Shown: piece by piece, positions 986-13,279 of the stretch
Layout of the letters: each line of letters opens with the position of its first letter
Numbering within the stretch: the stretch's first letter is position 1
The notes under the pieces: generated by a model
Seen by the model: only the letters and a program-made list of their open reading frames with translations
Told to the model about the DNA's origin: nothing
Databases searched by the model: none
DNA from: Desulfocapsaceae bacterium
GTDB lineage: Bacteria > Desulfobacterota > Desulfobulbia > Desulfobulbales > Desulfocapsaceae
Direction: 5' to 3'
Length of the DNA: 13,279 nt
Assembly (NCBI GenBank): GCA_029934775.1
Contig: JAOZLO010000034.1
Coordinates: 1-13,279 of the forward strand
Position numbers and translations under genes: made by a program

Positions 986-1014
986 TTTAAAACCGTAATA
1001 ATCTAATATTTAGA

Positions 1015-1030
1015 CTTCCCGACCGGGAAG
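1015..1030 (-). promoter_or_regulatory. Perfect dyad/hairpin in the presumed RNase G leader
   Basis: CTTCCC (1015-1020) and GGGAAG (1025-1030) form a perfect 6-bp GC-rich stem around the tetraloop GACC, the only GC-rich patch in an AT-rich intergenic region. It lies 30 bp upstream of the RNase G start and upstream of the -35 box of the divergent promoter. It could be a protein-binding operator or a leader hairpin. E. coli RNase E is known to control its own mRNA through 5' UTR hairpins, so autoregulation is a reasonable but untested idea. Confidence 0.4.
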
Positions 1031-1063
1031 GAGTATGTTATTTGAATTTTGCAGTATACAGTA

Positions 1064-1092
1064 TTGTCAGTGAACAATGCCATATTTATAAT
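1064..1092 (+). promoter_or_regulatory. Sigma70-type promoter for the glycosyltransferase/radical SAM unit
   Basis: TTGTCA at 1064-1069 and a perfect TATAAT at 1087-1092 are separated by exactly 17 bp. Transcription would start near 1099, giving a leader of about 27 nt before the ATG at 1127. The leader has no strong Shine-Dalgarno. Confidence 0.65.
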
Positions 1093-1126
1093 ATTTTTAT
1101 ATTATTGAAAAATACGAAGTCTGCCC

Positions 1127-1975
1127 ATGAAATTCTCTCCTGTATCGGTGATTATTCCGACCTATAATCGTCAAGAGTTGCTCAAACGGGCACTCATTTC
1201 CGTGAAAAGGCAGACCTTGAAATGTTCTGAAATTATAGTAATTGATGACGGATCAACTGATAATACTGTCGATTTTTTAAATGAATTTTCACGAACCACA
1301 GAAATAGATTTCAAGATGGTACGTCAGAGTAATCAAGGCCCTGCTGTGGCTCGCAATCACGGCATTAAGTGTGCAAAAAATGAATACATAGCCTTTCTAG
1401 ACTCAGACGATCATTGGCATAAGAGAAAAATTGAGAGGCAATATGAGATTTTTATAGAAAACCCGGAGTATATGATTAGTCACACAAAGGAAAAATGGCT
1501 GCGAAGGGGAGTTCATCTCAATCAAAAGAAAAAACATATCCCACGACATGGTGATATCTTTGACCACTGTCTCCAGCTCTGTGGGGTCGGTATGTCGACA
1601 GTGATGCTTAAAAAAAATCTTTTCAAAAAAATTGGCCTGTTTGACGAAACACTTCATTGCTGTGAAGATTATGATTTCTGGTTGCGCGTCAGCAGTAGAT
1701 TCCCTTTTTATCTTGTCAATGAACCTCTTACCGTAAAGGAAGGAGGCAGAGATGACCAGATTTCTTCTCTGCATAGAATGGGCATGGATCGTCTGCGAAT
1801 TTATGCCCTAAAAAAAATAATCGATTCCAAGACACTCAACGACAAGCAATGTCTTCTTGCACTGGATGAATTTGAAAGAAAATGTACTATTTTCGGTAAT
1901 GGTTGTCTTAAACATGGCAGGCAAGCTACAGGGAAATATTATCTTGCGCTTGCTGAATCATATAAACAGACATGA
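1127..1975 (+). CDS. Family 2 glycosyltransferase (GT-A fold), cytoplasmic
   Basis: Inverting glycosyltransferase that would move a sugar from a nucleotide-sugar donor to an acceptor in surface-polysaccharide or glycolipid synthesis; donor and acceptor cannot be read from sequence. The 282-aa protein opens with VSVIIPTYNRQELLKRAL and has the GT2 landmarks in order: IDDGSTD (39-45, nucleotide binding), GPAVARNHGI (71-80), the metal-binding DSDD (92-95) and CEDYDFWLR (179-187) carrying the acidic general-base region. There is no signal peptide or membrane helix, so it is a soluble GT-A domain with a roughly 90-residue helical C-terminal part. That tail (EGGRDDQISSLHRMGMDRLR) is polar and not typical of chain synthases. 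The start is the first ATG after a good promoter, although the ribosome site is weak. The radical SAM gene follows after 29 bp, so the two are probably co-transcribed, with no obvious functional link. Confidence 0.88.
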   Translation: MKFSPVSVIIPTYNRQELLKRALISVKRQTLKCSEIIVIDDGSTDNTVDFLNEFSRTTEIDFKMVRQSNQGPAVARNHGIKCAKNEYIAFLDSDDHWHKRKIERQYEIFIENPEYMISHTKEKWLRRGVHLNQKKKHIPRHGDIFDHCLQLCGVGMSTVMLKKNLFKKIGLFDETLHCCEDYDFWLRVSSRFPFYLVNEPLTVKEGGRDDQISSLHRMGMDRLRIYALKKIIDSKTLNDKQCLLALDEFERKCTIFGNGCLKHGRQATGKYYLALAESYKQT

Positions 1976-1992
1976 CTTAAAGCACTGGTGAA

Positions 1993-2000
1993 AAGGAGGA
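1993..2000 (+). promoter_or_regulatory. Strong Shine-Dalgarno fixing a GTG start
   Basis: AAGGAGGA ends 4 nt before the GTG at 2005. The next in-frame methionine is only at residue 97 of the protein, next to the iron-sulfur motif, so this site settles the GTG start of the radical SAM gene. Confidence 0.7.
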
Positions 2001-2004
2001 AAGA

Positions 2005-3123
2005 GTGGGGGGAAAATCATGGAAAGACCCGTCGGATTTTATTGACAGGATTTATGTTGAAGAATCTTGTATCGATTTATCTTACACCAGAGAAATTCTA
2101 AATAGAGCCAATTTACCGTATACCCTGATCCCTGATAGAGGAAAACCCAACGATCTTGACCAGGATTATGTAAACAATCTTTCCGCTGGTAAGAAACAAC
2201 TTTTTCTCTGTGAAAACAGGGGGCATTTTTTCAAACCATGTCCTGGTACCAGAGAATATCAGTGCTGCGATTACCAGGTATTAAACACCGGGATGAATTG
2301 CCCAATGGATTGTGTATATTGTATTTTACAGGCATATCTCAATGCTCCCTGGTTGACTTTTTATGTTAATACAGAAAAGCTTTTCAAAGAACTCGATGAA
2401 AGTCTGCATAACAATTCTACCCGGTTTTTTCGTATAGGAACTGGGGAATTCACCGATTCTCTGGCCATTGACAGATTGACACAGCTAAGCTGTTTACTGG
2501 TGAACTATATTGGTAAACAAAAAAATGCTGTTCTTGAATTGAAAACCAAAAGTGGAGTAGTTGAAAACCTGGAAGGCCTTGAACACAATGGCAGGACGAT
2601 TGTCGCCTGGTCATTGAACAGCCCGGTTATAATGAAAAAGGAGGAAATCCGCTCAGCCAGTCTCGATGAACGTCTTACTGCCGCAAAATATTGTGTGAGT
2701 CTGGGATATAAAGTAGCATTTCATTTTGATCCGATAATTGATCATCATGACTGGCAGGATGGATATGCCGAAACCATTAGGCGGCTTTATGAAGAGATTC
2801 CCGCAGAATCTATTGTCTGGATATCCCTGGGCGCTTTACGTTTTATTCCCAGTTTAAAAGAAATTGGAATACGGAGATTTCCTCGTTCAGAGATTTATTA
2901 CCAGGAATTTATTGAAGGACTGGACGGTAAAGCACGATATTTCAGGCCAAATAGAGTTAAACTGTACCAATTTATCTATAATTGTTTAAAAATGAAAGCC
3001 TCTGAAAAAACGTGTGTCTATTTTTGCATGGAGAGTGATGAAATATGGAAGGAAGTTATGGGATTTGTTCCGGCTGATAAAGGCGGTATCCCGTTTATGC
3101 TTGATAAGGCCGGCAGGGCATGA
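2005..3123 (+). CDS. Radical SAM protein of the spore photoproduct lyase (SPL) family, atypical
   Basis: Radical SAM enzyme of 372 aa starting at GTG. The 4Fe-4S cluster motif is C99-x3-C103-x2-C106 (NCPMDCVYC), the CX3CX2C spacing of radical SAM proteins, followed by LQAYLN as in SPL (CxYCYLQ). Further SPL-like blocks are YVNTEKL (120-126), LELKTKS (177-183), WSLNSP near 202-207, DERLTAAKYCVSLGYKVAFHFDPII (221-245) and a C-terminal RFPRSEIYYQEF block. True SPL repairs the thymine dimer found in UV-treated endospores. Compared with Bacillus SPL (recalled, not aligned by software), the tyrosine between the last two cluster cysteines is kept, the tyrosine after the last one is isoleucine (I107), and the hydrogen-donor cysteine (C141 in B. 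subtilis) has no counterpart in FFRIGTGEFTDSLAID (141-156). A different substrate or hydrogen-transfer route is therefore likely. It probably shares a transcript with the upstream glycosyltransferase gene. Confidence 0.85.
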   Translation: MGGKSWKDPSDFIDRIYVEESCIDLSYTREILNRANLPYTLIPDRGKPNDLDQDYVNNLSAGKKQLFLCENRGHFFKPCPGTREYQCCDYQVLNTGMNCPMDCVYCILQAYLNAPWLTFYVNTEKLFKELDESLHNNSTRFFRIGTGEFTDSLAIDRLTQLSCLLVNYIGKQKNAVLELKTKSGVVENLEGLEHNGRTIVAWSLNSPVIMKKEEIRSASLDERLTAAKYCVSLGYKVAFHFDPIIDHHDWQDGYAETIRRLYEEIPAESIVWISLGALRFIPSLKEIGIRRFPRSEIYYQEFIEGLDGKARYFRPNRVKLYQFIYNCLKMKASEKTCVYFCMESDEIWKEVMGFVPADKGGIPFMLDKAGRA

Positions 3124-3173
3124 ATGCTGACACCCATAAAATAATTTAAACATAGAGGAATTTTCATTTTTTA

Positions 3174-3219
3174 GACAGGATGCTCAGGATAAAAACATAA
3201 AAATCCTGTTAATCCTGTC
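3174..3219. repeat. Imperfect inverted repeat of the GACAGGAT/ATCCTGTC type
   Basis: Arms of 17 nt at 3174-3190 and 3203-3219 match at 14 of 17 positions and enclose a 12-nt A-rich loop. Each arm holds two copies of an AGGAT/ATCCT unit. It begins 50 bp after the stop of the radical SAM gene and could act as a transcript end or stabiliser, although no T-run follows on the plus strand. From memory, repeats of the form ACAGGATTAACAGGAT are scattered in many environmental bacterial genomes; that has not been checked here. Confidence 0.6.
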
Positions 3220-3292
3220 AAATTAGTTCAACCGCAGGTGGGATAGCAGAAATTTTATGGTTTGTTCTTTATTGCATCTATCGTATAGTTAC

Positions 3293-3434
3293 TAACACCC
3301 CACAAGGGGGTATAAGTGCCATGGCGATTAATGTAACCACATAATTTCAAAACACATTACTCGATTACTTGTTTTTATACCCCTCAAGGGGGGTACTGTA
3401 CTGAGTTACAGCTTTTATGGAGTAGGGCACTAAA
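3293..3434 (+). repeat. Structured interspersed repeat, copy 1 (142 bp), upstream of ssb
   Basis: Shares a perfect 32-bp block at its left end (3293-3324) and a 29-bp block with one mismatch at its right end (3406-3434) with the copy at 12452-12608, same orientation; the middle is only partly similar. Inside are two hairpins with C-rich/G-rich arms: 3297-3301 with 3307-3311, and 3378-3383 with 3390-3395. In competition with both, GGGGTATAA (3307-3315) can pair with TTATACCCC (3375-3383), nine consecutive pairs. AGTGCC (3315-3320) and GGCACT (3426-3431) are inverted and could close the structure. No target-site duplication is visible. It is either a MITE-like element or a repeated cis-acting RNA. 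The stretch from 3220 to 3292 holds nothing recognisable. Confidence 0.75.
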
Positions 3435-3478
3435 TGAAAGATCCTATTTTTTCTACTATTGAGGAGATTTGTACATGA
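3434..3478 (+). CDS. Possible 14-codon leader ORF overlapping the ssb start
   Basis: ATG at 3434 opens a reading frame [14 protein letters not shown] whose TGA (3476-3478) overlaps the ssb ATG (3475-3477) in an ATGA junction. An AGGG at 3424-3427, inside the right end of the repeat, sits 6 nt before the ATG. ATGA junctions commonly couple translation of two genes, so this could be a short coupled leader. At 14 codons it may equally be chance, and the ssb ribosome site inside it is good enough on its own. Confidence 0.25.
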
Positions 3479-3912
3479 TTAATAAGGTAATACTTGTTGG
3501 AAATTTGGGTGCTGATCCCGAAATTCGTTACACACAAGAGGGAACTTCTGTTGCAACTTTTAATATTGCAACGACGGAACGCTGGACAAACAAAAGTGGT
3601 GAAAAACAAGAATCTACTGAGTGGCACCGCATCGTTGCCTGGCGTAGGCTTGCCGAGATTTGTGGAGAATTTTTACATAAAGGGTCCAAAGTATATATTG
3701 AAGGAAAACTTCAGACTCGTAAATGGCAGGATCAGAGCGGCAACGACAGATACACAACTGAAATCGTAGCTCGTGAAATGAAGATGCTGGATTCCAGAGG
3801 TGACGGTGGAGGAGGGGGTACTGGTTTTAGCGAACCTCCAATGCCATCTGAGTCGAATTCATTTGGCTCTATGGATGGTGGTGGCAGTACAGGAGAAGAA
3901 GTGCCTTTTTAG
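3475..3912 (+). CDS. ssb: Single-stranded DNA-binding protein
   Basis: Homotetrameric SSB that coats single-stranded DNA in replication, recombination and repair and recruits partner proteins by its C-terminal tip. The 145-aa protein has the whole OB fold ([20 protein letters not shown] at the start, then [25 protein letters not shown] and the [13 protein letters not shown] block, to about residue 105), a short glycine-rich linker, and the acidic tip EEVPF, a variant of the usual DDDIPF. I chose ATG at 3475: GAGGAG at 3461-3466 lies 8 nt upstream, and the protein then begins exactly as other SSBs do. A TTG six bases earlier (3469) is in frame but only 2 nt from the Shine-Dalgarno. It stands alone, between a structured repeat and a strong terminator. 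No convincing promoter was seen between repeat and gene, so transcription may start within or before the repeat. Confidence 0.97.
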
Positions 3913-3964
3913 ACCACCTTGAAAAATCGCCTTTTTTCCCAATATCAGCATTGTACTTAAAAAT

Positions 3965-3993
3965 TTAACCTCTTAATATTTTAACCCTATAAT
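3965..3993 (+). promoter_or_regulatory. Candidate promoter in the ssb-J-protein intergenic region
   Basis: TTAACC (3965-3970) and a perfect TATAAT (3988-3993) are 17 bp apart. There is no plausible coding frame downstream, only about 165 bp running into the terminator at 4103-4162. Confidence 0.4.
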
Positions 3994-3999
3994 TGTGGT

Positions 4000-4165
4000 A
4001 ATTTTTTTCGAACGCCTTGATTTTAGACGGGAATGTTAATTTTACAAGGCATCCTTTAGATAACCAGGAAAACATCGTGTAATTCTATTTGCATAAAGGA
4101 ATAAAAAAGGATTCTAAAGAGTTATTCAAACGAATTGAATAACTTTAAAGAATCCTTTTTTTATT
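4000..4165 (+). ncRNA. Candidate small RNA (about 165 nt) between promoter and terminator
   Basis: A consensus -10 box at 3988-3993 predicts a start near 4000, and a strong terminator closes at about 4162. Between them no credible open frame exists; the only ATG frame with a nearby GGGA (4033) has 8 codons. A 6-bp stem GCCTTG/CAAGGC (4014-4019 with 4045-4050) could form a 5' domain with a 25-nt loop. It matches no RNA family I recognise (not tmRNA, 4.5S, RNase P RNA or a clear 6S RNA). It could simply be the distal 3' UTR of ssb. Confidence 0.3.
4103..4162 (+). terminator. Strong, probably bidirectional rho-independent terminator
   Basis: AGTTATTCAA (4120-4129) pairs perfectly with TTGAATAACT (4135-4144) around the loop ACGAA. 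Outside a small internal loop, AGGATTCT (4108-4115) pairs with AGAATCCT (4149-4156), flanked by A- and T-runs. T-rich tails follow on both strands, so it can stop transcripts from either side and insulate ssb from the J-protein gene. It lies 190 bp after the ssb stop codon. Confidence 0.85.
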
Positions 4166-4214
4166 TTTATACTGACATATTTTCATCTGCTCCAGCCGGA
4201 CAGGCAATTGTCAC

Positions 4215-4391
4215 TGTAAAAGGTAACTATTCATGGGGGTAAGCATCTAAACTTCGCTAACCTCCGTGCTTGTAACTGATTACAGGGTGCTGTAGATTTT
4301 TGCAGGCAGGCAGACCGGCGTCGCCTAAGTCATACGTAAGCCGACGTGATCGCGGAAAGATGCGGTGGCCTGTGAGCAGTTACTGTAAAAG
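4215..4391. mobile_element. 161-bp MITE (4223-4383) with 8-bp target-site duplication, IS66-like ends
   Basis: TGTAAAAG occurs at 4215-4222 and again at 4384-4391, exactly abutting the inverted ends GTAACT (4223-4228) and AGTTAC (4378-4383). The inverted ends match at 11 of the first 15 positions. GTAA-type termini and 8-bp duplications are the known pattern of the IS66 family, so this is best read as a non-autonomous element; it has no coding capacity. It is heavily structured: GGGGGTAAGC (4235-4244) pairs with GCTAACCTCC (4256-4265) with one mismatch, and GTAACTG (4272-4278) plus ACAGG (4282-4286) pair perfectly with CAGTTAC (4377-4383) and CCTGT (4369-4373). The inner 4272-4383 segment thus has its own perfect inverted ends, as if nested or rearranged. 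Confidence 0.75.
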
Positions 4392-4395
4392 AAAG

Positions 4396-4424
4396 TTGAC
4401 GTGGCACTCAAGTGTTCATATTGT
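4396..4424 (+). promoter_or_regulatory. Candidate sigma70 promoter for the J-protein gene
   Basis: TTGACG (4396-4401) and TATTGT (4419-4424) are 17 bp apart, beginning 5 bp after the right-hand target duplication of the MITE. Transcription would start near 4431, about 75 nt before the ATG at 4505. No good Shine-Dalgarno lies directly before that ATG. Confidence 0.45.
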
Positions 4425-4504
4425 TGGTACAGAAAAAACGATAGAAAAATAGCTCACATAACCTGTGTTGGAAAGATTTAATCGACTTTAATTGATATTG
4501 CATT

Positions 4505-5440
4505 ATGGACTACTACAATGTGCTAGGAGTAACTAAAGAAACAACTCCTGCAGAAATTAAAAAATCGTATAGGAAGCTTGCGCTGAAATATCACCCGGAT
4601 AAAAATAAGGGAGATAAAGCATCTGAAGCTAAATTCAAAGAGATCAGTGAAGCTTACGCGGTACTGTCAGACCCGGAGAAAAAACAGCAGTATGATCGTT
4701 TTGGCTCAACTCAGTTTCGTCAGCAATATTCCCAGGAAGATATATTCAGAAACTTTGACCTCAATGATATCTTCAGTCAATTTAATTTTGGTTCAAGAGG
4801 AAGGTCTGCTTCCTTCAGTTCTGAAAAGGCTGGTAACGGAGGATCCAATCCATTCAGTTCTTTTTTCAATCAGGGTCAGACAGGAGGTTGCGGTGGTGGC
4901 TGTCAGCCCAACCCCACAAAGGGCCAGGACATGACTTATCAAATTTCTGTCACCCTTGATGAAGTGCTCAATGGAGCAGAGCGTACAATTACTCTGCGAA
5001 GAAACGGGGATTCTCATAATGTATCAGTGAAAATACCAAAAGGCATTGAAGAAGGAAAAAAACTACGATTACAGGGGAAAGGGGGAGGATCACCGGATGG
5101 AGGGCCGGCGGGAGATCTTTATTTGAAAGTTGAGATAGCTCCTGACAGTAAATTTCTTCGAGAAACTGATGATCTTGTAGTCGAAAAACTCATCACTTTC
5201 AGTGAGGCGTGTCTCGGAACAAAGGTGGAAATTGAAACCCTTGAAGGGAAAAGATTTATGGTGAAAGTTGACCCCGGAACTGTACATGACTCACGTTTGA
5301 GAATCAAAGGATACGGGCTACCGGCTGGTCCTATGGGAAATCGTGGGAACCTGTATGTCAAACTGGGTGTAAAGGTTCCAAAAATATTAACTGACGAACA
5401 AAAAAAAGTTGTTGAACAGTTGAAAGACTGCAACCTTTAG
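4505..5440 (+). CDS. cbpA: CbpA-type J-domain co-chaperone (DnaJ class B, no zinc finger)
   Basis: Hsp40 co-chaperone that delivers unfolded clients to DnaK and stimulates its ATPase. Order of parts in 311 aa: J-domain 1-67 starting [15 protein letters not shown] with HPD at 30-32 and the [18 protein letters not shown] end; a G/F- and S-rich linker from about 67 to 138; then two beta-barrel client domains ([20 protein letters not shown] onward) to the end. The four CxxCxGxG zinc repeats of DnaJ itself are absent, which places it with CbpA/DjlB-type proteins; only an isolated cysteine pair, C129 and C133, lies in the linker. CbpA of E. coli also binds curved DNA; whether this one does is unknown. 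No CbpM modulator gene follows; the next gene is convergent leuD, whose stop is 21 bp away with no clear terminator between. The start fits the family exactly despite a poor ribosome site. Confidence 0.92.
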
Positions 5441-5461
5441 GTCACCTGCGATCAACTCTTT

Positions 5462-5998
5462 TCAATAATTCGAATCAGCGTAAGCCAGCCATCCACCTTC
5501 AGAAACGAGTTTTTTGTCAAACTCATTCAATTCGAACTGAAATGCAGCACTATCCTGTGAATTCAAATCTGAGTGAGCGTTGAGTGTACATTTTTCAAGA
5601 TCTATAGAGAGTATTATATTTCCCTTCATTGCAAACAAGGCCTCAATGCTATCTTTTTTGAGTTCTAAAGCCAATATTCCGCAATTAAACATGTTTTGCC
5701 TGAAAATTCTGGCAAAACTCTCCGCTATAACGACATTAATATCATTGACTTCAAAGACCCACACAGCATGCTCTCTTGATGACCCGCAGCCGAAATTTGC
5801 CCGTGAAATAACGACTCCTGCACTTTGTATCTTTTCGGATCGATAATCAATTCGTTTGCCAGACAGCAAAAGATCTTCCAGCAGATGTGACTTCAAGGCA
5901 CTCTTTGAAATCTCTGTCAGGTACTTTGCAGGTATTATTTCATCGGTGTTTATATTGTCTCTGTCCAGGAAAAGAGCAGGACCTCCAAATTGTTTCAT
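5462..5998 (-). CDS. leuD: 3-isopropylmalate dehydratase-type small subunit
   Basis: Small (swivelling) subunit of an isopropylmalate isomerase-type hydro-lyase, which pairs with LeuC to convert 2- to 3-isopropylmalate in leucine synthesis. The 178-aa protein carries DRDNINTDEIIPAKYL (12-27), GVVISRANFGCGSSREHA (61-78) and the VVIAESFARIFRQNMFNCG block (89-107), all standard for the family. The substrate-selecting loop after the conserved tyrosine reads YLTE where characterised isopropylmalate enzymes usually have YLRT and homoaconitase relatives YLV-; specificity is therefore not settled by sequence. The length is that of the archaeal-type two-subunit enzymes. GAGG lies about 7 nt upstream of the ATG. 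It follows leuC by 19 bp and is certainly co-transcribed with it; the 3' end faces the J-protein gene. Confidence 0.9.
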   Translation of the reverse strand: MKQFGGPALFLDRDNINTDEIIPAKYLTEISKSALKSHLLEDLLLSGKRIDYRSEKIQSAGVVISRANFGCGSSREHAVWVFEVNDINVVIAESFARIFRQNMFNCGILALELKKDSIEALFAMKGNIILSIDLEKCTLNAHSDLNSQDSAAFQFELNEFDKKLVSEGGWLAYADSNY

Positions 5999-6017
5999 TC
6001 TATAACCTCGTGTTCGT

Positions 6018-7307
6018 TTATTTCAAAAGTTCTCTGGGATCGGTGATTACTCCAGTAAGGGCGGCGGCGGCAGCTGAGTAGGGACTCATTAAGTGAACCA
6101 TACCGCCTTTTCCCATCCTGCCATTAAAATTCCGGTTTGTAGTTGATGCACAAACTTCACCTTCAGCAAGTACTCCAGAACTCATTCCCAGACAAGCCCC
6201 GCAGGTTGGGTTTAAAACACAAAAACCGGCGTCCATGAAAGTTTTAATGATTCCTTCTTCAAGAGCCATATTGTAGATTAGCGGGGTCGCCGGGGTTACT
6301 ACACCTCTGACATCTTCGGCTATTTTTTTTCCTTCAAGTATAGACGCAGCAGCCCTTAAATCTTCTATCCTGCCGTTGGTACAGGAACCAATATAAACCT
6401 GGTCAACAACAGTACCCGCCATTTCCTTAATATCTTTTACTTGATCCGGTCTGTAGCCATGGGTCACCTGAGGTTCCAAATCGGAAAAATCGAAATTAAT
6501 GATATCGGAATAGGTTGCATCAGGATCTGAATGCCACTTTTTATAATCTTCAACAGCACTATCAACTGACGAGTAATCAGATTTAATAAATGGCCATAAA
6601 TATTCAGCTGTTATACGATCAGGAAAGCAGATTCCGCACGTGGCACCAGCCTCTACCGCCATGTTGCAGAGGGTCATGCGGGCTGACATATTAAAAGAGG
6701 TAACTAAAGGTCCTGAAAATTCAATTACTTTGTCTGTTGCACCGTTGACAGATATATTTTTTATAATTGCCAGAATGACATCTTTTGCAGTAGTACCAGG
6801 TTTAAGGACACCTGAAAGATTAATTTTAAGTGTCTCAGGTGCTCTGAAAGAACACACCCCTTTGTATATACCAACTTCAAGGTCGGTTGTGCCAACTCCC
6901 GCTGCAAATGCTCCAAATGCACCATGGGTGCAGGTGTGTGAGTCCCCCATAATAACAGTATATCCAGGACGAATAAAGCCTTTTTCGGGGAAAAGCGCGT
7001 GACAGACGCCATTCGCACCAATATCAAAAAAATCCTTGATGCCATGACGTTTTGCCCACTCTCGCATAATTTTACCCTGAGTAGCAGTTTTGGAATCTTT
7101 AGCAGGTGAAACATGATCTATGACAGCTTTTATTTTTGTGCTGTCAAAAACCTTGTCCATACCTTTTTCAACCAGATCTAAAATTGCGATTGGGGTAGTA
7201 ATCTCATGGCATAGTACAACATCGAGATTAAGAACCATATTTTCCAGCGATGGTTTATCTCGTAAATGTGACTCGAAGATTTTTTCAGCTATTGTTTTCC
7301 CCATCAT
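6018..7307 (-). CDS. leuC: 3-isopropylmalate dehydratase-type large subunit (aconitase family)
   Basis: Catalytic subunit of the LeuCD hydro-lyase, holding a 4Fe-4S cluster with one open iron site. Cluster ligands are visible as C309 (IGSCTNGR) and C369/C372 (NPTCGACLG). Other aconitase-superfamily signatures are DHVSPAKDSKTATQG (64-78), VIMGDSHTCTHGAFGAFAAGVGTTD (118-142) and STTNRNFNGRMG (388-399). The 429-aa length fits the short archaeal-type LeuC/HacA group rather than the roughly 465-aa enterobacterial LeuC. Two consecutive ATGs open the gene; GGAG sits 5 and 8 nt before them, so either can serve. No leuA or leuB lies in this window, so a role in leucine synthesis rests on family membership; related enzymes act on homocitrate or other malate derivatives. 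Confidence 0.92.
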   Translation of the reverse strand: MMGKTIAEKIFESHLRDKPSLENMVLNLDVVLCHEITTPIAILDLVEKGMDKVFDSTKIKAVIDHVSPAKDSKTATQGKIMREWAKRHGIKDFFDIGANGVCHALFPEKGFIRPGYTVIMGDSHTCTHGAFGAFAAGVGTTDLEVGIYKGVCSFRAPETLKINLSGVLKPGTTAKDVILAIIKNISVNGATDKVIEFSGPLVTSFNMSARMTLCNMAVEAGATCGICFPDRITAEYLWPFIKSDYSSVDSAVEDYKKWHSDPDATYSDIINFDFSDLEPQVTHGYRPDQVKDIKEMAGTVVDQVYIGSCTNGRIEDLRAAASILEGKKIAEDVRGVVTPATPLIYNMALEEGIIKTFMDAGFCVLNPTCGACLGMSSGVLAEGEVCASTTNRNFNGRMGKGGMVHLMSPYSAAAAALTGVITDPRELLK

Positions 7308-7574
7308 ATAAACTCCGGTGTCTGTAAGTGTGAGATTGTCATTATTATTTTATCTGTGAAAAGTCAAAAGAAGGAAGGTAGATGCATTTTATATTAAAAA
7401 AAATCATCAAAAATGATGCACGATACAACAAAATTGACAACCTCGCTATTGTATTATGGAATCAATGAAACTGGTGCTCTGGAAAAGATGAGACAACAAC
7501 CGATAAAGTCGGTATAAACATTCGAGCATAAACGATACCTTCAACAGGAAAAAAGATCAGGGAGTTCATTTTAC
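7308..7574. other. Divergent intergenic region between leuC and the binding-protein gene
   Basis: Very AT-rich. It holds a 5-bp hairpin CATCA/TGATG (7405-7418) that reads into a T-run on the minus strand, and could be a weak attenuator in the leuC leader. On the other side ACCGA (7499-7503) pairs with TCGGT (7509-7513), overlapped by an alternative pairing GGTAT (7511-7515) with ATACC (7535-7539), in the likely leader of the binding-protein gene. A perfect -35 box TTGACA stands at 7434-7439 but no good -10 is at the right distance. GGAG (7561-7564) is the ribosome site for the gene at 7575, 10 nt from its ATG. Confidence 0.4.
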
Positions 7575-9365
7575 ATGGAATTTAAAAAGATCATTTTTGT
7601 AGTTCTTATTCTCATATACTCACCTACTTTACTTTTTGCTGCTCATGGAATATCCATTGACGGTTCTTTAAAGTATCCGCCTGATTTTAAGCAGTTTGAT
7701 TACACTTCTCCCGACTCTGTTAAAGGAGGAAAACTGATCCTCCATCAGATAGGCAGTTTTGACAAAATGAATCCTTTCACCCGTAAAGGTGAAGCACCTT
7801 ATGGTCTTGAAATGCTTGTTTTTGAGCCACTGGCTGTTGCAAGTCTAGATGAACCTTTTTCAGAATATGGTCTGATTGCTGAAAACATAGAACTCGCTGA
7901 AGATAAAATGTCTGTTACATATATACTTAACAAAAATGCCATATTTTCTGACGGTAGCCCCATAACAGCTGATGATGTTGCTTTTACCCTGGATATATTC
8001 AAAGGTGAGAAAGTCCATCCATTCTATCCTTTCTACTATAAAGATATCTCAGGATCTGAGATATTGGGCAACAGGAAGATTAAATTTAATTTTGCACGAA
8101 AAAATAGAGAGTTGCATCTTATTGCCAGTCAGATGCGTATTTTATCAAAAAGATTTTATGCGCAAACAGGTTTCGGGGATGAACAGGGGAGGAATATCCT
8201 GCAATCACCTCTAGCTTCAGGTCCCTATGTCGTCTCTCATATAAATCCCGGAAAAACAGTTACATACGAGAGAAATATGAAGTATTGGGCCAAAAATATT
8301 CCAGCCAGGAAGGGTATGTTTAATTTTGATGAGATAGTCGTTAAGTATTACAAGGATCAGACAGTTGCTCTTGAAGCTTTTAAAGCCGGCGAATTTGATC
8401 TCATCTCGATTAATATTGCCAAACAATGGGCCAGGGACATGAAGGGGCCAAAATTCACTTCCGGAATAATCAAAAAAAATAATTTCATTCATTCAAATAA
8501 CGCTGGAATCCAAGGTTTTTTGATGAATAGCAGGCGAAGTCTCTTTAAAGATCCCAAGGTACGGCAAGCCCTGGGGTTGGCTCTTGATTTCGAATGGGTA
8601 AACAAGGCACTTTTTCATGGACAGTATACCAGAACAAATTCATTTTTCAGTAATTCCCATCTTGCAGCAACCGGTTTGCCGGAAGGTCTCGAACTTGAGT
8701 ATTTAGAGCAGTACCGAGACAGTTTACCCGAAGAGGTATTTACGCAACCCCTTTCAGCACCGACAACTGATAAAAAAAATAACCTGAGAAGTCATCTTAA
8801 AAAGGCCAGGCAACTCCTCAGAGATTCAGGCTGGGAAATCGAAAAAGGGGTGCTGAAAAATAGAGATGGAAAGGCCTTTGAGTTTGATATACTGCTTGTA
8901 TCCCAGGCATTCGAAAGGGTAATGGCTTCGTATGTTAGAAATTTACAAAAACTTGGTATAAAAACACGTTACAGGACAATTGACCCGACATTGTACACAG
9001 AACGATTGAAAACATTTGATTTTGATATGATTGTCACTACATATGGCCAATCCCAGTCCCCCGGCAATGAGCAGCGTAATTACTGGCATTCCTCTGTTGC
9101 AGCAGTGAAAGGTTCTAAAAATTATGCCGGGATTGAATCCGCCATAGTAGATAACTTCGTTGAGAGGGTAATCTATGCTGAAAACAGAACACAATTAATC
9201 GCTGCCTGTAAGGCTCTTGACCGGGTACTCTGGTATGGATACTATCTGGTTCCGAACTGGTACCTGGGAAGTCATAGAATAAGCTACTATAACAAAATAA
9301 ATTTTCCGGCTCGGCTACCTCTCTATTACAGTCCTTTTGAACTCCTTATGACAACGTGGGAATAG
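7575..9365 (+). CDS. Periplasmic substrate-binding protein, SBP family 5, YejA-like
   Basis: Extracytoplasmic solute-binding protein of an ABC importer for peptides or peptide-like compounds. The 596-aa precursor starts with a signal peptide (MEFKKIIFVVLILIYSPTLLFAA, cleavage likely after FAA at 23; no lipobox cysteine, so a soluble periplasmic protein). The mature part opens HGISIDGSLKYPPDFKQFDYTSPDSVKGGKL, then GSFDKMNPFTRKGEAP, which is the YejA subgroup pattern. Family-5 landmarks are the FSDGSPITADDVAFTLD block (128-144), SGPYVV near 215-220, the D-P-KVRQALGLALD block and a C-terminal YEASP-like region that ends SPFELLMTTW. YejA works with YejBEF permease/ATPase subunits and in enterobacteria takes up antimicrobial peptides and microcin C; none of those genes is next to this one (tsaE follows after 105 bp), so its transporter must be elsewhere or it is shared. 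Confidence 0.88.
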   Translation: MEFKKIIFVVLILIYSPTLLFAAHGISIDGSLKYPPDFKQFDYTSPDSVKGGKLILHQIGSFDKMNPFTRKGEAPYGLEMLVFEPLAVASLDEPFSEYGLIAENIELAEDKMSVTYILNKNAIFSDGSPITADDVAFTLDIFKGEKVHPFYPFYYKDISGSEILGNRKIKFNFARKNRELHLIASQMRILSKRFYAQTGFGDEQGRNILQSPLASGPYVVSHINPGKTVTYERNMKYWAKNIPARKGMFNFDEIVVKYYKDQTVALEAFKAGEFDLISINIAKQWARDMKGPKFTSGIIKKNNFIHSNNAGIQGFLMNSRRSLFKDPKVRQALGLALDFEWVNKALFHGQYTRTNSFFSNSHLAATGLPEGLELEYLEQYRDSLPEEVFTQPLSAPTTDKKNNLRSHLKKARQLLRDSGWEIEKGVLKNRDGKAFEFDILLVSQAFERVMASYVRNLQKLGIKTRYRTIDPTLYTERLKTFDFDMIVTTYGQSQSPGNEQRNYWHSSVAAVKGSKNYAGIESAIVDNFVERVIYAENRTQLIAACKALDRVLWYGYYLVPNWYLGSHRISYYNKINFPARLPLYYSPFELLMTTWE

Positions 9366-9420
9366 TCATGCTCTTAGAACCAGTGGCTCATGTTTTCACG
9401 CCGGATTGCTGTTTATTAAT

Positions 9421-9435
9421 TGATAAAACTTATCA
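9421..9435. other. Small AT-rich hairpin in the 105-bp gap before tsaE
   Basis: TGATAA (9421-9426) and TTATCA (9430-9435) form a perfect 6-bp stem with a 3-nt loop. It has no T-run, so it is a poor terminator. tsaE has its own ribosome site GAGGG at 9461-9465, 5 nt before its ATG. Confidence 0.3.
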
Positions 9436-9470
9436 TTGGCTGCGATGACAGGTAGACCTAGAGGGTATTC

Positions 9471-9959
9471 ATGCTTGAGGATTTTTTGATAATACTTAAT
9501 AATCTTTATGATACTGAAAGACTAGGTGTTGCAATTGGTAAAATTAGCCAGGTAGGGGATTGCATCTGTCTCAATGGCAATCTCGGAGCCGGCAAAACAA
9601 CCCTGGCCCAGGCCATTGCTCTAGGATTAGAAGTTCCTCCGCACTGTTATGTTACGAGTCCAAGTTTTGTCATGATGCATGAGTATAGCGGAAGGATTCC
9701 TCTCTACCATATGGATTTTTATCGCCTGTATGACTCCGGTGATATTATTGATCTGGGTTTTGAAGAATACTTTTATCTTGATGGATTAACAGTTATTGAG
9801 TGGTCAGAAAGAGCGACAGACATTCTTCCCGAAGGTCGGCTTGCAATTGAAATTAAGCAAAAGGGTGAGGAGCAAAGAAGTGTTCATTTTTTTACTGAAA
9901 ATGAGGCTCTGGCAAGACGATATCGAAAAATGTTGTTCAATTTTAGAAAGACAATATAA
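9471..9959 (+). CDS. tsaE: tRNA threonylcarbamoyladenosine biosynthesis ATPase TsaE
   Basis: P-loop ATPase needed with TsaB and TsaD to transfer the threonylcarbamoyl group to A37 of ANN-decoding tRNAs. The 162-aa protein has the Walker A motif GNLGAGKTT (36-44), the TsaE-typical TSPSF segment (62-66), HMDFYRL (80-86) with the metal-binding aspartate, LGFEEY (95-100) and VIEWSER (108-114), all in the expected order. The N-terminal LYDTERLGVAIGKIS stretch is the usual helix before the P-loop. GAGGG lies 5 nt upstream. TsaB and TsaD genes are not in the window. The YcaO-TPR gene begins 27 bp after its stop, so the two are likely one transcript; in many genomes tsaE neighbours unrelated genes, so the link may be only positional. 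Confidence 0.94.
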   Translation: MLEDFLIILNNLYDTERLGVAIGKISQVGDCICLNGNLGAGKTTLAQAIALGLEVPPHCYVTSPSFVMMHEYSGRIPLYHMDFYRLYDSGDIIDLGFEEYFYLDGLTVIEWSERATDILPEGRLAIEIKQKGEEQRSVHFFTENEALARRYRKMLFNFRKTI

Positions 9960-9986
9960 ATAAAAAATGAGTGGATAATTAATAAA

Positions 9987-11735
9987 ATGAAAAAAAAATC
10001 TATTAAACTTCAGGATTGTTTCAAAACTTACACAACAGACCAGGATAAAGCAGTTACACCCGAAGAAACACTGCAATATTTTTATAAAAAGGTGAAACAA
10101 CTTGATCTTAACATTCTCAATGAGGTAAAGCGGATTGATAATGGTCGACTTGATATACCTGTGTATTTCAGTGTGTGCGGCGAGGATGCTTTATCCATGA
10201 CTGGAACAAAAAAACAGATGGGAAAAGGAGCGTCTGCAGTGCAGGCTGAAGCTTCCGCCTGTATGGAACTGGCGGAGAGGTTTTCATTTTTCTCGTTTAA
10301 GCACAATCCTGAAAATTTCCTCTCTGGAGATTATACAACAATGATTGGTGCGGGATACCCTGTTCTGGATATGAAATACCTCCTTGATTCGGTTCACGAT
10401 GCCCATACAGATGTAAAGGTCTTGCAGCAATTACTTGAAGAAATCCCGATGCAGTGGATCTGGGCAACCAATATAAGCCTGAATAAAGACGTCCTCATAC
10501 CTTTCTCGTGGTTCTATGCAATAAATGAATTTAATGGGCCATCCGCTGGAAATACCTATGAAGAATCGGCACTCCAGGGGATATGTGAAATAATCGAAAG
10601 GCACGTCTGTTCACTTGTTAACAATGAAAAAATTGAGACACCGAAAATTGATAAAGATTCAGTGTCAGATGAGGTAGCAAGAGCAGTATTGAAAAAATTT
10701 GAAGACAATGACATTGAACTTTATCTTAATGACTTCACTCTTGACACCGGGATCTGTACTGTAGGTGCCCTGGCAATTGACCGGACAACATTCCCAGGTA
10801 AAAGTGAGATAGTTTATACAGCTGGAACAACTCCTGATCCTGAAAAGGCAATAATTAGAGCTATAACTGAAGTTGCCCAGCTTGCAGGAGATTTCAACAC
10901 CAAATCCAATTATGTTGCCTCTGGGTTACCAAAACCTCTCTCCATGAATGAAGTAACGTATATGACTGAAACTCAGTCCACTACTTCAATTGAGAAAATG
11001 AGTAATCTATCGCATAATAATATGAGGATTGAAATTGATAATTGTATAGATGCATTAAAGAAGATCAATATGGAGATATTCATGATTGATGTTACTCATG
11101 ATGATTTGAAAATCCCTGCTCTGTATACAATTATTCCCGGTGCGCACTTCAGGGAGAGATCGAGAATAAATGATGCTGGACTTTTTGCAGCAAAATTACT
11201 GATGGATCTTGTGACGGATTCCAAGTTACTTGAGAAGAAATTTCGTGAAATGGAAAAACTCCTGCCACAGGCGTATTACCTCCAATTTTACAGGGGAAGA
11301 AATTTTTTAAATATGGATCTTCCAGAGGCAGCTATTGAACATTTTGACAAAGCCCTGGCACTTCAACCGGAACAGGAAGATTTACCCTATATATACTCAT
11401 TTAAGGGGAGTTGTTTAAAGGATCTTGGAAGAGTTGACGAGGCAATCGAAGTAGCAAAACAGGGACTGAGAGAAGATGAAGAAAGACCCGATTTACATAA
11501 CACTTTAGGGGTCTGCTATTTTAAAAAACAAGAATACAAAAATGCCATAAAACATTTCAAGCGGGCAGTTGATCTCAATCCCGCTTCAGGCATTGATTAT
11601 GCGAATCTTGGTGTCAATTATCATAAAATTGGCAAGAAAGAACTGGCAATTGAATTTTTGACGTTGGCTTTGACGCTTGATTCAACTCTTGACTTTGCCC
11701 ATGACCTGTTAACCCAGCTTACGGGGAAGGAGTGA
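9987..11735 (+). CDS. YcaO-domain protein fused to C-terminal TPR repeats
   Basis: YcaO enzymes use ATP to phosphorylate a peptide amide oxygen, leading to azolines, thioamides or amidines in peptides and proteins. The 582-aa protein has a YcaO core at about 50-410 with the ATP-binding pattern: GKG (79-81), EASACMELAER (88-98, with E94 and E97), YEESALQGICEIIERH (191-206, E201 and E204) and RAITEVAQ (291-298, E295). From about 428 to the end come roughly four TPR helical hairpins, for example AAIEHFDKALALQPEQ, HNTLGVCYFKKQEYKNAIKHF and YANLGVNYHKIGKKELAIEFL, probably for partner or substrate binding. It ends in TPR, not in the proline-rich PxPxP tail of azoline-forming YcaOs, and no TfuA, dehydrogenase or precursor-peptide gene adjoins. 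E. coli YcaO influences RimO-dependent S12 methylthiolation, so a housekeeping protein target is a fair guess. The ribosome site (GAGTGG) is weak; the start follows tsaE by 27 bp. Confidence 0.9.
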   Translation: MKKKSIKLQDCFKTYTTDQDKAVTPEETLQYFYKKVKQLDLNILNEVKRIDNGRLDIPVYFSVCGEDALSMTGTKKQMGKGASAVQAEASACMELAERFSFFSFKHNPENFLSGDYTTMIGAGYPVLDMKYLLDSVHDAHTDVKVLQQLLEEIPMQWIWATNISLNKDVLIPFSWFYAINEFNGPSAGNTYEESALQGICEIIERHVCSLVNNEKIETPKIDKDSVSDEVARAVLKKFEDNDIELYLNDFTLDTGICTVGALAIDRTTFPGKSEIVYTAGTTPDPEKAIIRAITEVAQLAGDFNTKSNYVASGLPKPLSMNEVTYMTETQSTTSIEKMSNLSHNNMRIEIDNCIDALKKINMEIFMIDVTHDDLKIPALYTIIPGAHFRERSRINDAGLFAAKLLMDLVTDSKLLEKKFREMEKLLPQAYYLQFYRGRNFLNMDLPEAAIEHFDKALALQPEQEDLPYIYSFKGSCLKDLGRVDEAIEVAKQGLREDEERPDLHNTLGVCYFKKQEYKNAIKHFKRAVDLNPASGIDYANLGVNYHKIGKKELAIEFLTLALTLDSTLDFAHDLLTQLTGKE

Positions 11736-11775
11736 TGACCTCAGTTTCTCGTTTTTTATGACAGAAAATAAGGAA

Positions 11776-11800
11776 TACGGTACTAAACCGTACCATTTCT
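11776..11800 (+). terminator. Probable weak terminator after the YcaO-TPR gene
   Basis: TACGGT (11776-11781) pairs with ACCGTA (11787-11792) around a 5-nt loop, followed by a T/C-rich run to about 11809. It lies about 40 bp after the stop codon. The tail is interrupted by C and A, so efficiency is uncertain. Confidence 0.45.
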
Positions 11801-11809
11801 TTCTATTTT

Positions 11810-11855
11810 AGTGTAGGTTCTCCTGGCCCAAAGGGCAGTATAACCAAACCACACT
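11810..11855 (+). promoter_or_regulatory. Stem-loop leader upstream of cobC
   Basis: AGTGT-A-GGTT (11810-11819) pairs with AACCACACT (11847-11855), nine pairs with one bulged A, enclosing a second stem GCCC/GGGC (11826-11829 with 11833-11836) extended by CT/AG. It ends 22 nt before the cobC ATG, a region with no Shine-Dalgarno. It lacks the conserved boxes and length of a cobalamin riboswitch. It may be a leader structure or part of another repeat. Confidence 0.4.
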
Positions 11856-11877
11856 CATTGAACAACCATATATAATA

Positions 11878-12474
11878 ATGAGCAAACTGTTGTATTTAAT
11901 GCGTCACGGAACCACAACTTTACATGGTCTGTATGTTGGCTCAACTGATGTTTCACTTAACCGGGAAGGAAGAGCGAAAGTTATACGAACAGGGGAAATT
12001 CTTGCCGGAGAACATATTGAACAGGTTTTCTGCAGTCCAATGAAACGATGCCGGGAAACTTTAGACCTCCTTCGTCTTGATGTTTCCTCAGAAATAGAAA
12101 AAGACCTCAGGGAAATTAATTTCGGGCGGTGGGAAGGACGCAGTTTCAAGGAGATTTCGAAAACTGATAGTGATCTCATAGAAGATTGGCGAGTGAACAG
12201 TGAATCTTTCTGCTTTCCTGAAGGTGAATGCGTAAAGGCATTTAACAGAAGGGTTGGTGCTTTTGCCCAAAAAGTAGCGACAGCATCTGGAAATCGGATA
12301 CTCATCGTTGCTCATGGCGGAACTATCCGACATCTGCTTTGCACTTTTTTGGGACTTGCTCCGGAAAAGAGGATGATATTTGACATACAGGCTGGAGCAT
12401 TCAGTATCGTCACACTTTATGATAATATTGGTGCCCTTACCGGTCTGAATGTAACACCCCACAAGGGGGTATAA
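11878..12474 (+). CDS. cobC: Histidine phosphatase, likely alpha-ribazole-5'-phosphate phosphatase CobC
   Basis: Branch-1 histidine phosphatase. Next to cobU the best assignment is CobC, which removes phosphate from alpha-ribazole phosphate (or the cobalamin phosphate) in the lower-ligand branch of B12 synthesis. In 198 aa the catalytic RHG is at 9-11 (phospho-acceptor H10), with a CSPMKRCRET block (52-61), EINFGRWEG (79-87) with the acid/base glutamates, PEGE (114-117) and the second histidine in VAHGGTIRHLL (144-154). That matches CobC more than general phosphoglycerate mutases, but substrate is inferred from context. The ATG is preceded by TATATAATA and no Shine-Dalgarno; the next methionine (residue 8) directly abuts RHG and is too late. 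The last six residues (TPHKGV) and the stop codon come from the interspersed repeat copy 2, so the original C-terminus may have been replaced. Confidence 0.85.
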   Translation: MSKLLYLMRHGTTTLHGLYVGSTDVSLNREGRAKVIRTGEILAGEHIEQVFCSPMKRCRETLDLLRLDVSSEIEKDLREINFGRWEGRSFKEISKTDSDLIEDWRVNSESFCFPEGECVKAFNRRVGAFAQKVATASGNRILIVAHGGTIRHLLCTFLGLAPEKRMIFDIQAGAFSIVTLYDNIGALTGLNVTPHKGV

Positions 12475-12608
12475 GTGCCATGGTGGTATATGTAAGTGCA
12501 TAATTTCAAATCACATTACTTGATTCGAAGTCGGAGTTTATGCCCTGGCTTCATAAGGGTGCTTATTTCTTGTTTTTCATTACAGCTTTTATGGAGTAAG
12601 GCACTAAA
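12452..12608 (+). repeat. Structured interspersed repeat, copy 2 (157 bp), between cobC and cobU
   Basis: Left 32 bp (12452-12483) are identical to 3293-3324 and the right block (12580-12608) matches 3406-3434 with one mismatch. The middle differs and is longer. The C-rich/G-rich hairpin (12456-12470) is kept; the second hairpin is degenerate. The long-range pairing of copy 1 survives as GGGTATAA (12467-12474) with TTATGCCC (12538-12545), one A-U/G-C position having become a G-U wobble. AGTGCC (12474-12479) and GGCACT (12600-12605) are the inverted closing arms. The left end overlaps the cobC coding end; the right end stops 12 bp before the cobU ATG. Confidence 0.75.
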
Positions 12609-12620
12609 AGGGTAAAGAAA

Positions 12621-13157
12621 ATGGCCAGATTGATCCTGATAACTGGAGGCGCCAGAAGTGGTAAGAGTTCCTATGCTTTAGGTGTTGCTGAGAAGATCTC
12701 AAAGAAAAAAATTTTTATTGCAACCTGCCCCCATCTGGATTCTGAAATGTCTGAGAGAGTTAGACGTCATACAGAAGAGAGAAAAGGAAGAGGCTGGCAG
12801 ACGATAGAAGAAGAAACTGAACTTGCAAATCTGTTCCCGGAAAAAGTTCAAGATGCTGATGTAGTTCTCATAGACTGTATAACCTTGTGGGTAAATAATA
12901 TTCTCTACAAGTCAGGAGAAGATAATATCGATGACTATGCAATATCCAAGCTTTGCAGCCTGTGGCTAGAAAAAACTGCTGAATATTCCGGTACTGTAAT
13001 ATGTGTTACCAATGAAGTCGGGATGGGAGTTGTTCCAGAGAATAGACTTGCCAGAAAGTATAGAGATCTTGTAGGCACCTGCAACCAGTTGATTGGAAAA
13101 ATCGCTGATGAGGTGGCCCTTGTATCTTGTGGTATACCGCTAGCAATTAAAAAATAA
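12621..13157 (+). CDS. cobU: Adenosylcobinamide kinase / adenosylcobinamide-phosphate guanylyltransferase
   Basis: Bifunctional enzyme of cobalamin nucleotide-loop assembly: it phosphorylates adenosylcobinamide and then transfers GMP to give AdoCbi-GDP, the partner of alpha-ribazole. The 178-aa protein has the P-loop GGARSGKSS (9-17), the guanylylated histidine at H50 in SERVRRHTEERKGRGW (H46 in Salmonella CobU), LIDCITLWVNN (83-93) as second nucleotide-binding motif, and TNEVGMGVVPENRLARKYRDLVG (130-152), the strongest family signature. Full length, ending GIPLAIKK. AAAAGGG at 12607-12613 lies 7 nt before the ATG and immediately follows the repeat. With cobC upstream it forms a lower-ligand salvage or assembly pair; cobS and cobT are not in the window. 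Confidence 0.95.
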   Translation: MARLILITGGARSGKSSYALGVAEKISKKKIFIATCPHLDSEMSERVRRHTEERKGRGWQTIEEETELANLFPEKVQDADVVLIDCITLWVNNILYKSGEDNIDDYAISKLCSLWLEKTAEYSGTVICVTNEVGMGVVPENRLARKYRDLVGTCNQLIGKIADEVALVSCGIPLAIKK

Positions 13158-13167
13158 TATCTATTAT

Positions 13168-13279
13168 CAGCAGTGTTCGGTTAGAAAACCAGTATAAATT
13201 TAATTCCAGATTAATGAGTTATTTTCAGCAATGTCCGGTTAGGAAATTGCAACACGCATCGTACGGATTTATGAGTTGA
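13168..13279. repeat. Tandem 21-nt motifs, probably the end of a mobile element cut by the window
   Basis: CAGCAGTGTTCGGTTAG (from 13168) recurs as CAGCAATGTCCGGTTAG (from 13226), 18 of 21 positions equal over the full motif, 58 bp apart in direct orientation. It begins 11 bp after cobU. Such doubled TGTYCGGTTA motifs resemble the subterminal binding sites of an insertion sequence, with any transposase gene lying beyond 13279. No open frame of use is seen before the edge. Confidence 0.4.

Follow-up and report, generated by a model that had tools for sequence, protein, structure and literature searches.

A high-copy, non-coding and probably mobile repeat in front of ssb and cobU in a Desulfocapsaceae genome

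On a 13,279-nucleotide stretch of DNA from a Desulfocapsaceae bacterium (assembly GCA_029934775.1, contig JAOZLO010000034.1, positions 1 to 13,279; hereafter the window), two similar sequences lie in front of the genes ssb and cobU, which raises the question of what these sequences are and how they came to be there. A preliminary description had treated them as two copies of a repeat with conserved ends and a conserved long-range pairing, either a miniature inverted-repeat transposable element (MITE) or a family of 5' untranslated region (5' UTR) RNA elements. We find that they belong to a high-copy, non-coding mobile repeat that is often located in front of genes. The explanation that we favor, at a probability of roughly 0.6, is a family of non-autonomous, non-coding mobile repeats that are moved in trans, most likely by an HUH (Y1-type) single-strand transposase. 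That the family is mobile at all is very probable; for an HUH single-strand mechanism, which is proposed from features of the repeat, the odds are about even.

A widespread family of structured repeats

The left 32-mer and the nearly identical right 29-mer shared by 3293-3434 and 12452-12608 were seen again in the sequence, as was the equal orientation of both copies relative to ssb and cobU. The distances to the start codons, previously given as 40 and 12 bp, are 41 bp (ssb ATG, 3475) and 13 bp (cobU ATG, 12621). The likeness of the two copies is far beyond chance: both score highly (Table 1) with a covariance model built on 20 short copies and are among 142 matches at E <= 0.01.

A search of the whole genome and of relatives, as well as a covariance model, had been proposed in the preliminary description. 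Further copies abound. The model, which recovered both window copies, gave at least 142 matches at E <= 0.01 in the window's own genome (G000, in which the window is contig C241), with 150 of 1812 first-look candidates scored, and 40 matches in G006, a complete genome of the same genus. BLAST with copy 1 returned 62 matching pieces within G000, and matches were present in 7 of 7 genomes of the genus and in 18 of 38 genomes overall, own genome counted. The most frequent left end (25-mer, up to 1 mismatch allowed) was found in 29 of 257 genomes of the order, representing 12 of 69 genera, and a reversed control pattern in none; this pattern is blind to alternative left ends, and G002, G003 and G005 score none yet have BLAST matches. 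For detailed analysis we kept 160 of the 182 covariance-model matches (123 of 142 from G000, 37 of 40 from G006), excluding the weakest and those at contig ends. We also used left ends from other genera, where 8 of 68 had no recognisable right end and were excluded; two of the remaining 60 were counted twice, leaving 58 distinct. As in a MITE family, the copies are short (100-170 nt in 154 of 160), non-coding, numerous and dispersed.

No plasmid copies were returned by a distant blastn search with a 114-nt query, and the exact left end was absent from phage contigs. Rfam gave 0 matches at the gathering threshold in the window, and none in six loci with the E limit relaxed to 1. No description of this repeat turned up in our literature searches, which were made by words and not by sequence. 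The repeat family is real and widespread, and apparently undescribed; it offers clear ends, empty sites and covarying structure.

The unit consists of CTAA, a hairpin H1 (ACCCC-NCAA-GGGGT), TATA, and a long stem H2 closed by AGTRCC:GGYACT, and it ends in CTAA. Its size is about 65-84 nt in the simplest form and about 114 nt in this genus, where short copies have 111-114 nt, and reaches 170-190 nt with inserted modules. Both window copies are long variants, copy 1 with an extra 27 nt and copy 2 with an unrelated module of about 42 nt. By eye, the 27-nt insert is the reverse complement of an alternative left end present in loci L043, L046 and L047. Modules of the copy 1 type occur in 14 of the 123 G000 copies and those of the copy 2 type in 13; 88 of the 123 contain none of five counted modules, and 0 of 37 G006 copies contain any. 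Of the 160 copies, 148 have an H1 of the CACCCC type, 7 have another hairpin in its place and 5 are unclear. The outermost ends (left TAACACCCC.., right ..GGYACTAA) are not inverted repeats of each other as would be expected of a MITE; only the internal H2 is. Copies can also stand head to tail, with 17 of 160 directly abutting another end and some joined at CTAA.

Some G000 copies, L019 and L012 among them, contain small modules (GAAGTCTACGCTTATC and kin), in places arranged in tandem, which gives the impression of repeats inserted into repeats. In a named Desulfobulbaceae record (L054), an element of opposite orientation directly follows ssb and, by eye, has another hairpin type.

Across the 20 copies of the model the H1 helix is 98% paired, and some copies have other hairpin sequences at that place. 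The pair that is shared by most copies and that covaries, AGTRCC (3315-3320 in copy 1) with GGYACT (3426-3431), was not named in the preliminary description. In the 20-copy alignment this outer stem shows double-sided changes at 2 of its 6 pairs, with a covariation score reached by 1 of 500 shuffles; the double-change pair count (303 of 500) and the number of further pair types (500 of 500) were not above shuffles. In the 136 of 160 copies, from both genomes, in which a left pentamer was found, the left and right terminal pentamers are exact complements in 96, compared to a mean of 58.7 (maximum 73 in 2000) after shuffling within each genome. Other genera provide stronger evidence of structure than this pentamer test: there, H2 often forms one long hairpin that is wholly different in sequence from element to element and yet self-pairing. 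The mean fold z score was -5.2 in other genera (53 of 60 below -2), -2.27 in the own genus (23 of 40 randomly chosen copies 105-145 nt long) and -0.4 in flanking DNA (3 of 38). Taken singly, the window copies are only moderately stable (z of -1.44 and -1.82).

A different pairing, of 3307-3315 with 3375-3383, had been proposed as one half of a switch. The 9-bp complementarity is indeed present in copy 1 (GGGGTATAA / TTATACCCC), and a competition between folds is possible there, because the fold constrained to this helix (-36.1 kcal/mol) lies just 0.4 kcal/mol above the minimum free energy of -36.5 kcal/mol; its pair probability is about 0.11. In copy 2, however, the helix has a probability of at most 0.001. 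That the pairing is kept between the copies, as had been claimed, was not confirmed, since the distant arms sit in the two unrelated inserts; in copy 1 the arm is made up of the start of the module and the bases directly before it. The arm TTAT[AG]CCC is found inside 22 of 123 G000 copies, 0 of 37 G006 copies and 4 of the 60 (58 distinct) from other genera. The long-range arm is a by-product of inserted modules and not a conserved switch.

Target site, empty sites and placement

Without filtering, the bases at the left side were C, T, A and A in 79, 93, 102 and 102 of the 123 G000 copies, and in 26, 34, 36 and 35 of the 37 G006 copies; the figures for the 60 from other genera were 78%, 82%, 88% and 92%. 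The G000 and G006 counts are separate from our target logo, in which copies of these two genomes were kept only with AA, AG or GA as second and third bases, a choice that favors A at these positions. An exact CTAA was present on the left in 53 of 122 (G000), 22 of 37 (G006) and 32 of 60 (other genera), against a background frequency of 0.0015 in flanks, and on the right in 86 of 122, 33 of 37 and 53 of 60. The triple TTA was never found on the left (0 of 160 and 0 of 60), indicating a strand-specific target. Among the 60 best-scoring G000 copies, the left triple was not TAA in 20 and the right triple in 4 (Fisher 4e-4; one of four cut-offs), and this asymmetry was also significant at the top 20 and top 30. 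A left TAA that is more variable than the right fits a target plus an element-encoded end. Although CTAA stands at both sides, left and right vary independently: the 52 copies with a left triple other than TAA include just 2 with a matching right triple. A plain target duplication, as expected of a simple transposon, is possible but not supported, and in the single empty site the boundary is ambiguous by the shared TAA.

Matches to ssb were found in 4 of the 6 other genomes of the genus and matches to cobU also in 4, with no match in the other 2 in each case. By its nearest named ssb matches, the host is related to Desulfobulbaceae. The covariance model, which recovers both of the window's copies, found no element upstream of ssb (G003-G006) or cobU in these eight loci. 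Absent from 4 of 4 ssb and 4 of 4 cobU loci, the element lacks the conservation at orthologous genes that would mark a cis-regulatory leader. Upstream of ssb, the DNA is conserved in three of these genomes (G003, G004 and G005) and not in the fourth (G006), and its block TTGTTC-N16-TATATT ends where the element begins in G000. A promoter function of this block is only presumed, because a promoter consensus scan did not list the G000 form, TTGTTC-N16-TATAGT. For cobU, the phosphatase neighbor is present only in G004 and G006; G003 and G005 have other neighbors and provide weaker evidence. When the sequences on either side of copy 2 are joined over one TAA, the phosphatase ends in LNVKG*, exactly as its G004 ortholog does; with copy 2 in place its C-terminus reads LNVTPHKGV*. 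This match fixes the inserted unit to within the shared TAA. From these comparisons, both window copies look like lineage-specific insertions.

Placement was tabulated against genes called with a simple codon-usage gene caller, which gave 12 plausible genes in the window. Only 3 of 123 G000 copies and 0 of 37 G006 copies overlap a gene by more than 30 bp. The downstream gene is co-oriented in 107 of 148 intergenic copies for which one was called (77 of 111 in G000, 30 of 37 in G006). The gaps occupied (n = 128) were co-directional in 82 cases, divergent in 39 and convergent in 7, compared to 78.6, 29.4 and 20.0 expected from YTAA sites in neighboring gaps; intergenic length gave an expectation of 16.3 convergent gaps (p 0.005). 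Polarity was simulated with random YTAA sites in the same gaps for 87 of the 110 usable single copies. A start codon is found within 40 bp of the right end in 27 of 87, compared to 17.2 expected (4 of 2000 simulations), and within 40 bp of the left end in 8 of 87, compared to 13.7 expected (39 of 2000 as low). Within co-directional gaps, 37 of 58 copies have the same orientation as the genes, compared to a mean of 29.6 (33 of 2000). Placement is non-random, and the location before start codons that was noted for the two window copies holds in part, as a statistical bias. The bias suggests that insertion or selection favors 5' leaders, and it differs from the published pattern of pneumococcal repeats.

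Table 1. Positions in the window of the two copies, their parts and the adjoining genes
Feature	Position	Strand	Remarks
Copy 1 of the repeat	3293..3433	+	Long type; 141 nt, counting the TAA at each end; covariance model 119.5 bits
Copy 2 of the repeat	12452..12607	+	156 nt including left TAA and right TAA; covariance model 97.8 bits
Left TAA of the (C)TAA insertion site, copy 1	3293..3295	+	CTAA preference (160 copies and 60 of other genera)
Hairpin H1 of copy 1, ACCCC-ACAAG-GGGGT	3297..3311	+	
Hairpin H1 of copy 2	12456..12470	+	Sequence identical to H1 of copy 1
Outer H2 stem, 5' arm AGTGCC, copy 1	3315..3320	+	Pairs with 3426-3431; covaries
Outer H2 stem, 3' arm GGCACT, then AA, copy 1	3426..3431	+	
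Outer H2 stem, 5' arm AGTGCC, copy 2	12474..12479	+	Pair probability about 0.7 with 12600-12605
Outer H2 stem, 3' arm GGCACT, copy 2	12600..12605	+	
Optional internal module ACCCC..GAGT, copy 1	3379..3406	+	Reverse complement of alternative left end; missing from short copies
Internal module CGAAGTCGGAGTTTATGCCC..GCTTAT, copy 2	12526..12566	+	Unrelated to copy 1 module; holds the distant arm of the preliminary description
ssb (single-strand DNA-binding protein)	3475..3912	+	Downstream of copy 1; Pfam SSB 4e-42
cobU	12621..13157	+	Downstream of copy 2; Pfam CobU 1.4e-56
Histidine phosphatase gene	11878..12474	+	3' end changed by copy 2; Pfam His_Phos_1; joined flanks compared with G004 ortholog
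Promoter-like block TTGTTC-N16-TATAGT	3262..3289	+	Directly upstream of copy 1; conserved upstream of ssb in G003, G004, G005, with TATATT there

The window contains other features as well. Just upstream of copy 1, at 3170-3225, is an inverted repeat (GACAGGAT..ATCCTGTTAATCCTGTC) whose 17-mer was found in 5 of 440 loci, representing two distinct places. By eye, a long hairpin and then a T run follow ssb at 4075-4400, a region with no Rfam match, and a 200-bp non-coding stretch precedes a dnaJ-like gene. The gene at 9987-11735 encodes a YcaO domain fused with TPR repeats. At the contig end, 13165-13279 contains two direct copies of a TAACCGRACAYTGCTG motif on the minus strand, which is also found in the G000 loci L215 and L267 and is possibly another repeat family or the end of an insertion sequence (IS).

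Probable movement of the repeat and rival explanations

We propose HUH-like transposition because the target is short and strand-specific, the structured ends are not equivalent, and some copies are joined head to tail at the element's own CTAA. A putative enzyme acting in trans would recognise the folded top strand (H1 and H2) and cut after CTAA at both ends, and the element would move as single-stranded DNA, the enzyme being most likely of the HUH (Y1-type) class. Copies landing beside genes would become structured 5' leaders or 3' tails. Copy 1, for instance, would supply the ssb leader, because it starts about where transcription from the promoter-like block would begin.

Several results weigh against this proposal. 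No mobilising enzyme was found in searches that covered the Y1 and Y2 families and left the DDE families unsearched, and in the loci read (53 for Y1, 16 for Y2) the gene is never flanked by a left and a right element end. No Y1 type is clearly common to the high-copy genomes, which are G000, G006, G059, G071, G078 and G252. Replication-strand bias is absent in G006, where 17 copies lie with the fork and 20 against it (origin and terminus placed by eye from 20 GC-skew samples). The asymmetry between left and right TAA is not significant when all 123 G000 copies are included (47 vs 34, Fisher 0.10). With the element removed in silico, 11 of 110 reconstructed empty sites lie inside a predicted gene, so intergenic placement is not strict. 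Finally, 94 of the 96 exact pentamer pairs belong to two subfamilies (GTGCC and GTACC), which indicates that common descent contributes to the pairing, and our shuffles ignore the relatedness of copies.

Y1 genes (PF01797) were searched for in 38 genomes, the own genome and relatives, and in a further six from the family; the search for Y2 (PF04986) covered six genomes. Y1 loci were scanned with up to about 1.5 kb per side (2+30+21), and not every Y1 match was given a locus. G000 has just two Y1 genes, RAYT-like by eye, whereas the only two strong Y1 matches in G006 have the length of IS200; a common Y1 driver is thus absent, lost or missed. What borders the two RAYT-like genes of G000 (L129 and L130, on C393 and C330) is not the element but repeats of the GGTC.GGTCTTGAA type, which apparently form a family of their own.

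Three other candidates were inspected and rejected as carriers. At L269, a left-end match lies beside an IS200-type gene. At L337 (in G056), right-end-like sequence is present on both sides of a RAYT-like gene (889-1869) as part of a duplicated stretch. Among the 16 Y2_Tnp loci, a copy adjoins broken Y2 pieces at one place in G078 (L412/L416); it is taken to be a neighbor, because both its ends are on one side. The direct duplication at L337 is about 170 bp long and includes the right half of the element-like sequence. The joint of the element does not appear to fit the core motif of integron attC sites.

An alternative, unlikely in our view, is a strict MITE on whose inverted ends (AGTRCCTT..AAGGYACT) a DDE transposase would act, duplicating a 3-4 bp (C)TAA target. 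CTAA does stand at both flanks, H2 starts and ends with an inverted repeat, and the repeat is small, non-coding and present in high copy. However, H1, which is part of the left end, is not included in the inverted repeat and has no equivalent on the right, and a symmetric TAA/TTA duplication predicts insertions in both orientations, which conflicts with the lack of any left TTA. The near absence of matching right triples also argues against it, though later mutation of one side would yield the same result. The earlier suggestion of a mobile element or MITE thus stands as far as mobility goes, given the many dispersed copies, lineage-specific insertion and CTAA site, but the repeat is not a classical MITE since its outermost ends are not inverted repeats.

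A bolder possibility, which we consider a long shot, is a new lineage of single-strand-DNA elements with a two-hairpin left end, CTAA cuts at both ends, a swappable pairing stem and an unrecognised enzyme, captured by preference in transcription-exposed DNA near promoters and ribosome-binding sites. If true, this would mean that an element rewrites 5' leaders across an order of sulfate-reducer relatives.

Still less probable is a true REP/REPIN family mobilised by a genomically encoded RAYT. It would account for a CTAA located 1-2 nt 5' of the hairpin foot, for many intergenic copies and tandem clusters, and for the presence of two RAYT-like genes in G000. Nevertheless, the GT[AG]G tag is missing, with CTAA in its place; the G000 RAYT-like genes are bordered by the other repeat; and G006 has 40 copies with only its two Y1 matches of IS200 length.

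A regulatory 5' UTR RNA family, riboswitch- or thermometer-like and under selection at the following genes, is the least credible account: the stable covarying structure, the excess of co-oriented downstream genes and the right ends near starts above expectation speak for it, but the element has no Rfam match, is absent at the ssb and cobU genes of congeners with a match, carries the switch arm in a minority of copies and has inserted into the last codons of a phosphatase gene, and we know of no common regulation of ssb and cobU.

Relation to known systems

Elements of the IS200/IS605 group, such as IS608 and ISDra2, and their deleted derivatives have subterminal hairpins, asymmetric ends and a strand-specific short left target. 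Our repeat has subterminal hairpins and a fixed short left target as well; an autonomous relative was looked for and not found. It differs in that no TnpA gene lies inside and in that H1 is only about 1-2 nt from the presumed cut site. A preference for the lagging strand is reported for IS608 and ISDra2 in the available part of PMC6006769, and in this respect, too, the repeat in G006 differs.

REPINs, as far as the available part of PMC3116915 describes them, have conserved ends and a spacer that changes while pairing is kept, and mobilisation in trans by RAYTs has been proposed. REPs have a tetranucleotide 0-2 nt before the hairpin foot (available part of PMC6006769), and some Y1 classes have feet other than GTAG (available parts of PMC6006769 and PMC3733652). 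The present repeat resembles both in being short, intergenic and non-coding, in its changing yet pairing spacer, in the tetranucleotide 5' of a hairpin and in its tandem clusters (PMC3116915, PMC6006769). It differs in having CTAA and not GT[AG]G, two non-equivalent hairpins and not inverted REPs, and interior modules; furthermore, no RAYT was bounded by it in the loci read.

With the MITEs BOX, RUP and ERIC it shares a high copy number, a length mostly below 200 bp, extensive base pairing and modular variants like those of BOX (available parts of PMC3049150 and PMC3733652). BOX and RUP are described as modular or structured MITEs with inverted ends (PMC3049150, in part), whereas the outermost ends of our repeat are not inverted, and no parent IS was found among the Y1 and Y2 families searched. 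Moreover, according to the available part of PMC3049150, BOX, RUP and SPRITE are over-represented between converging genes; in contrast, our repeat is depleted there.

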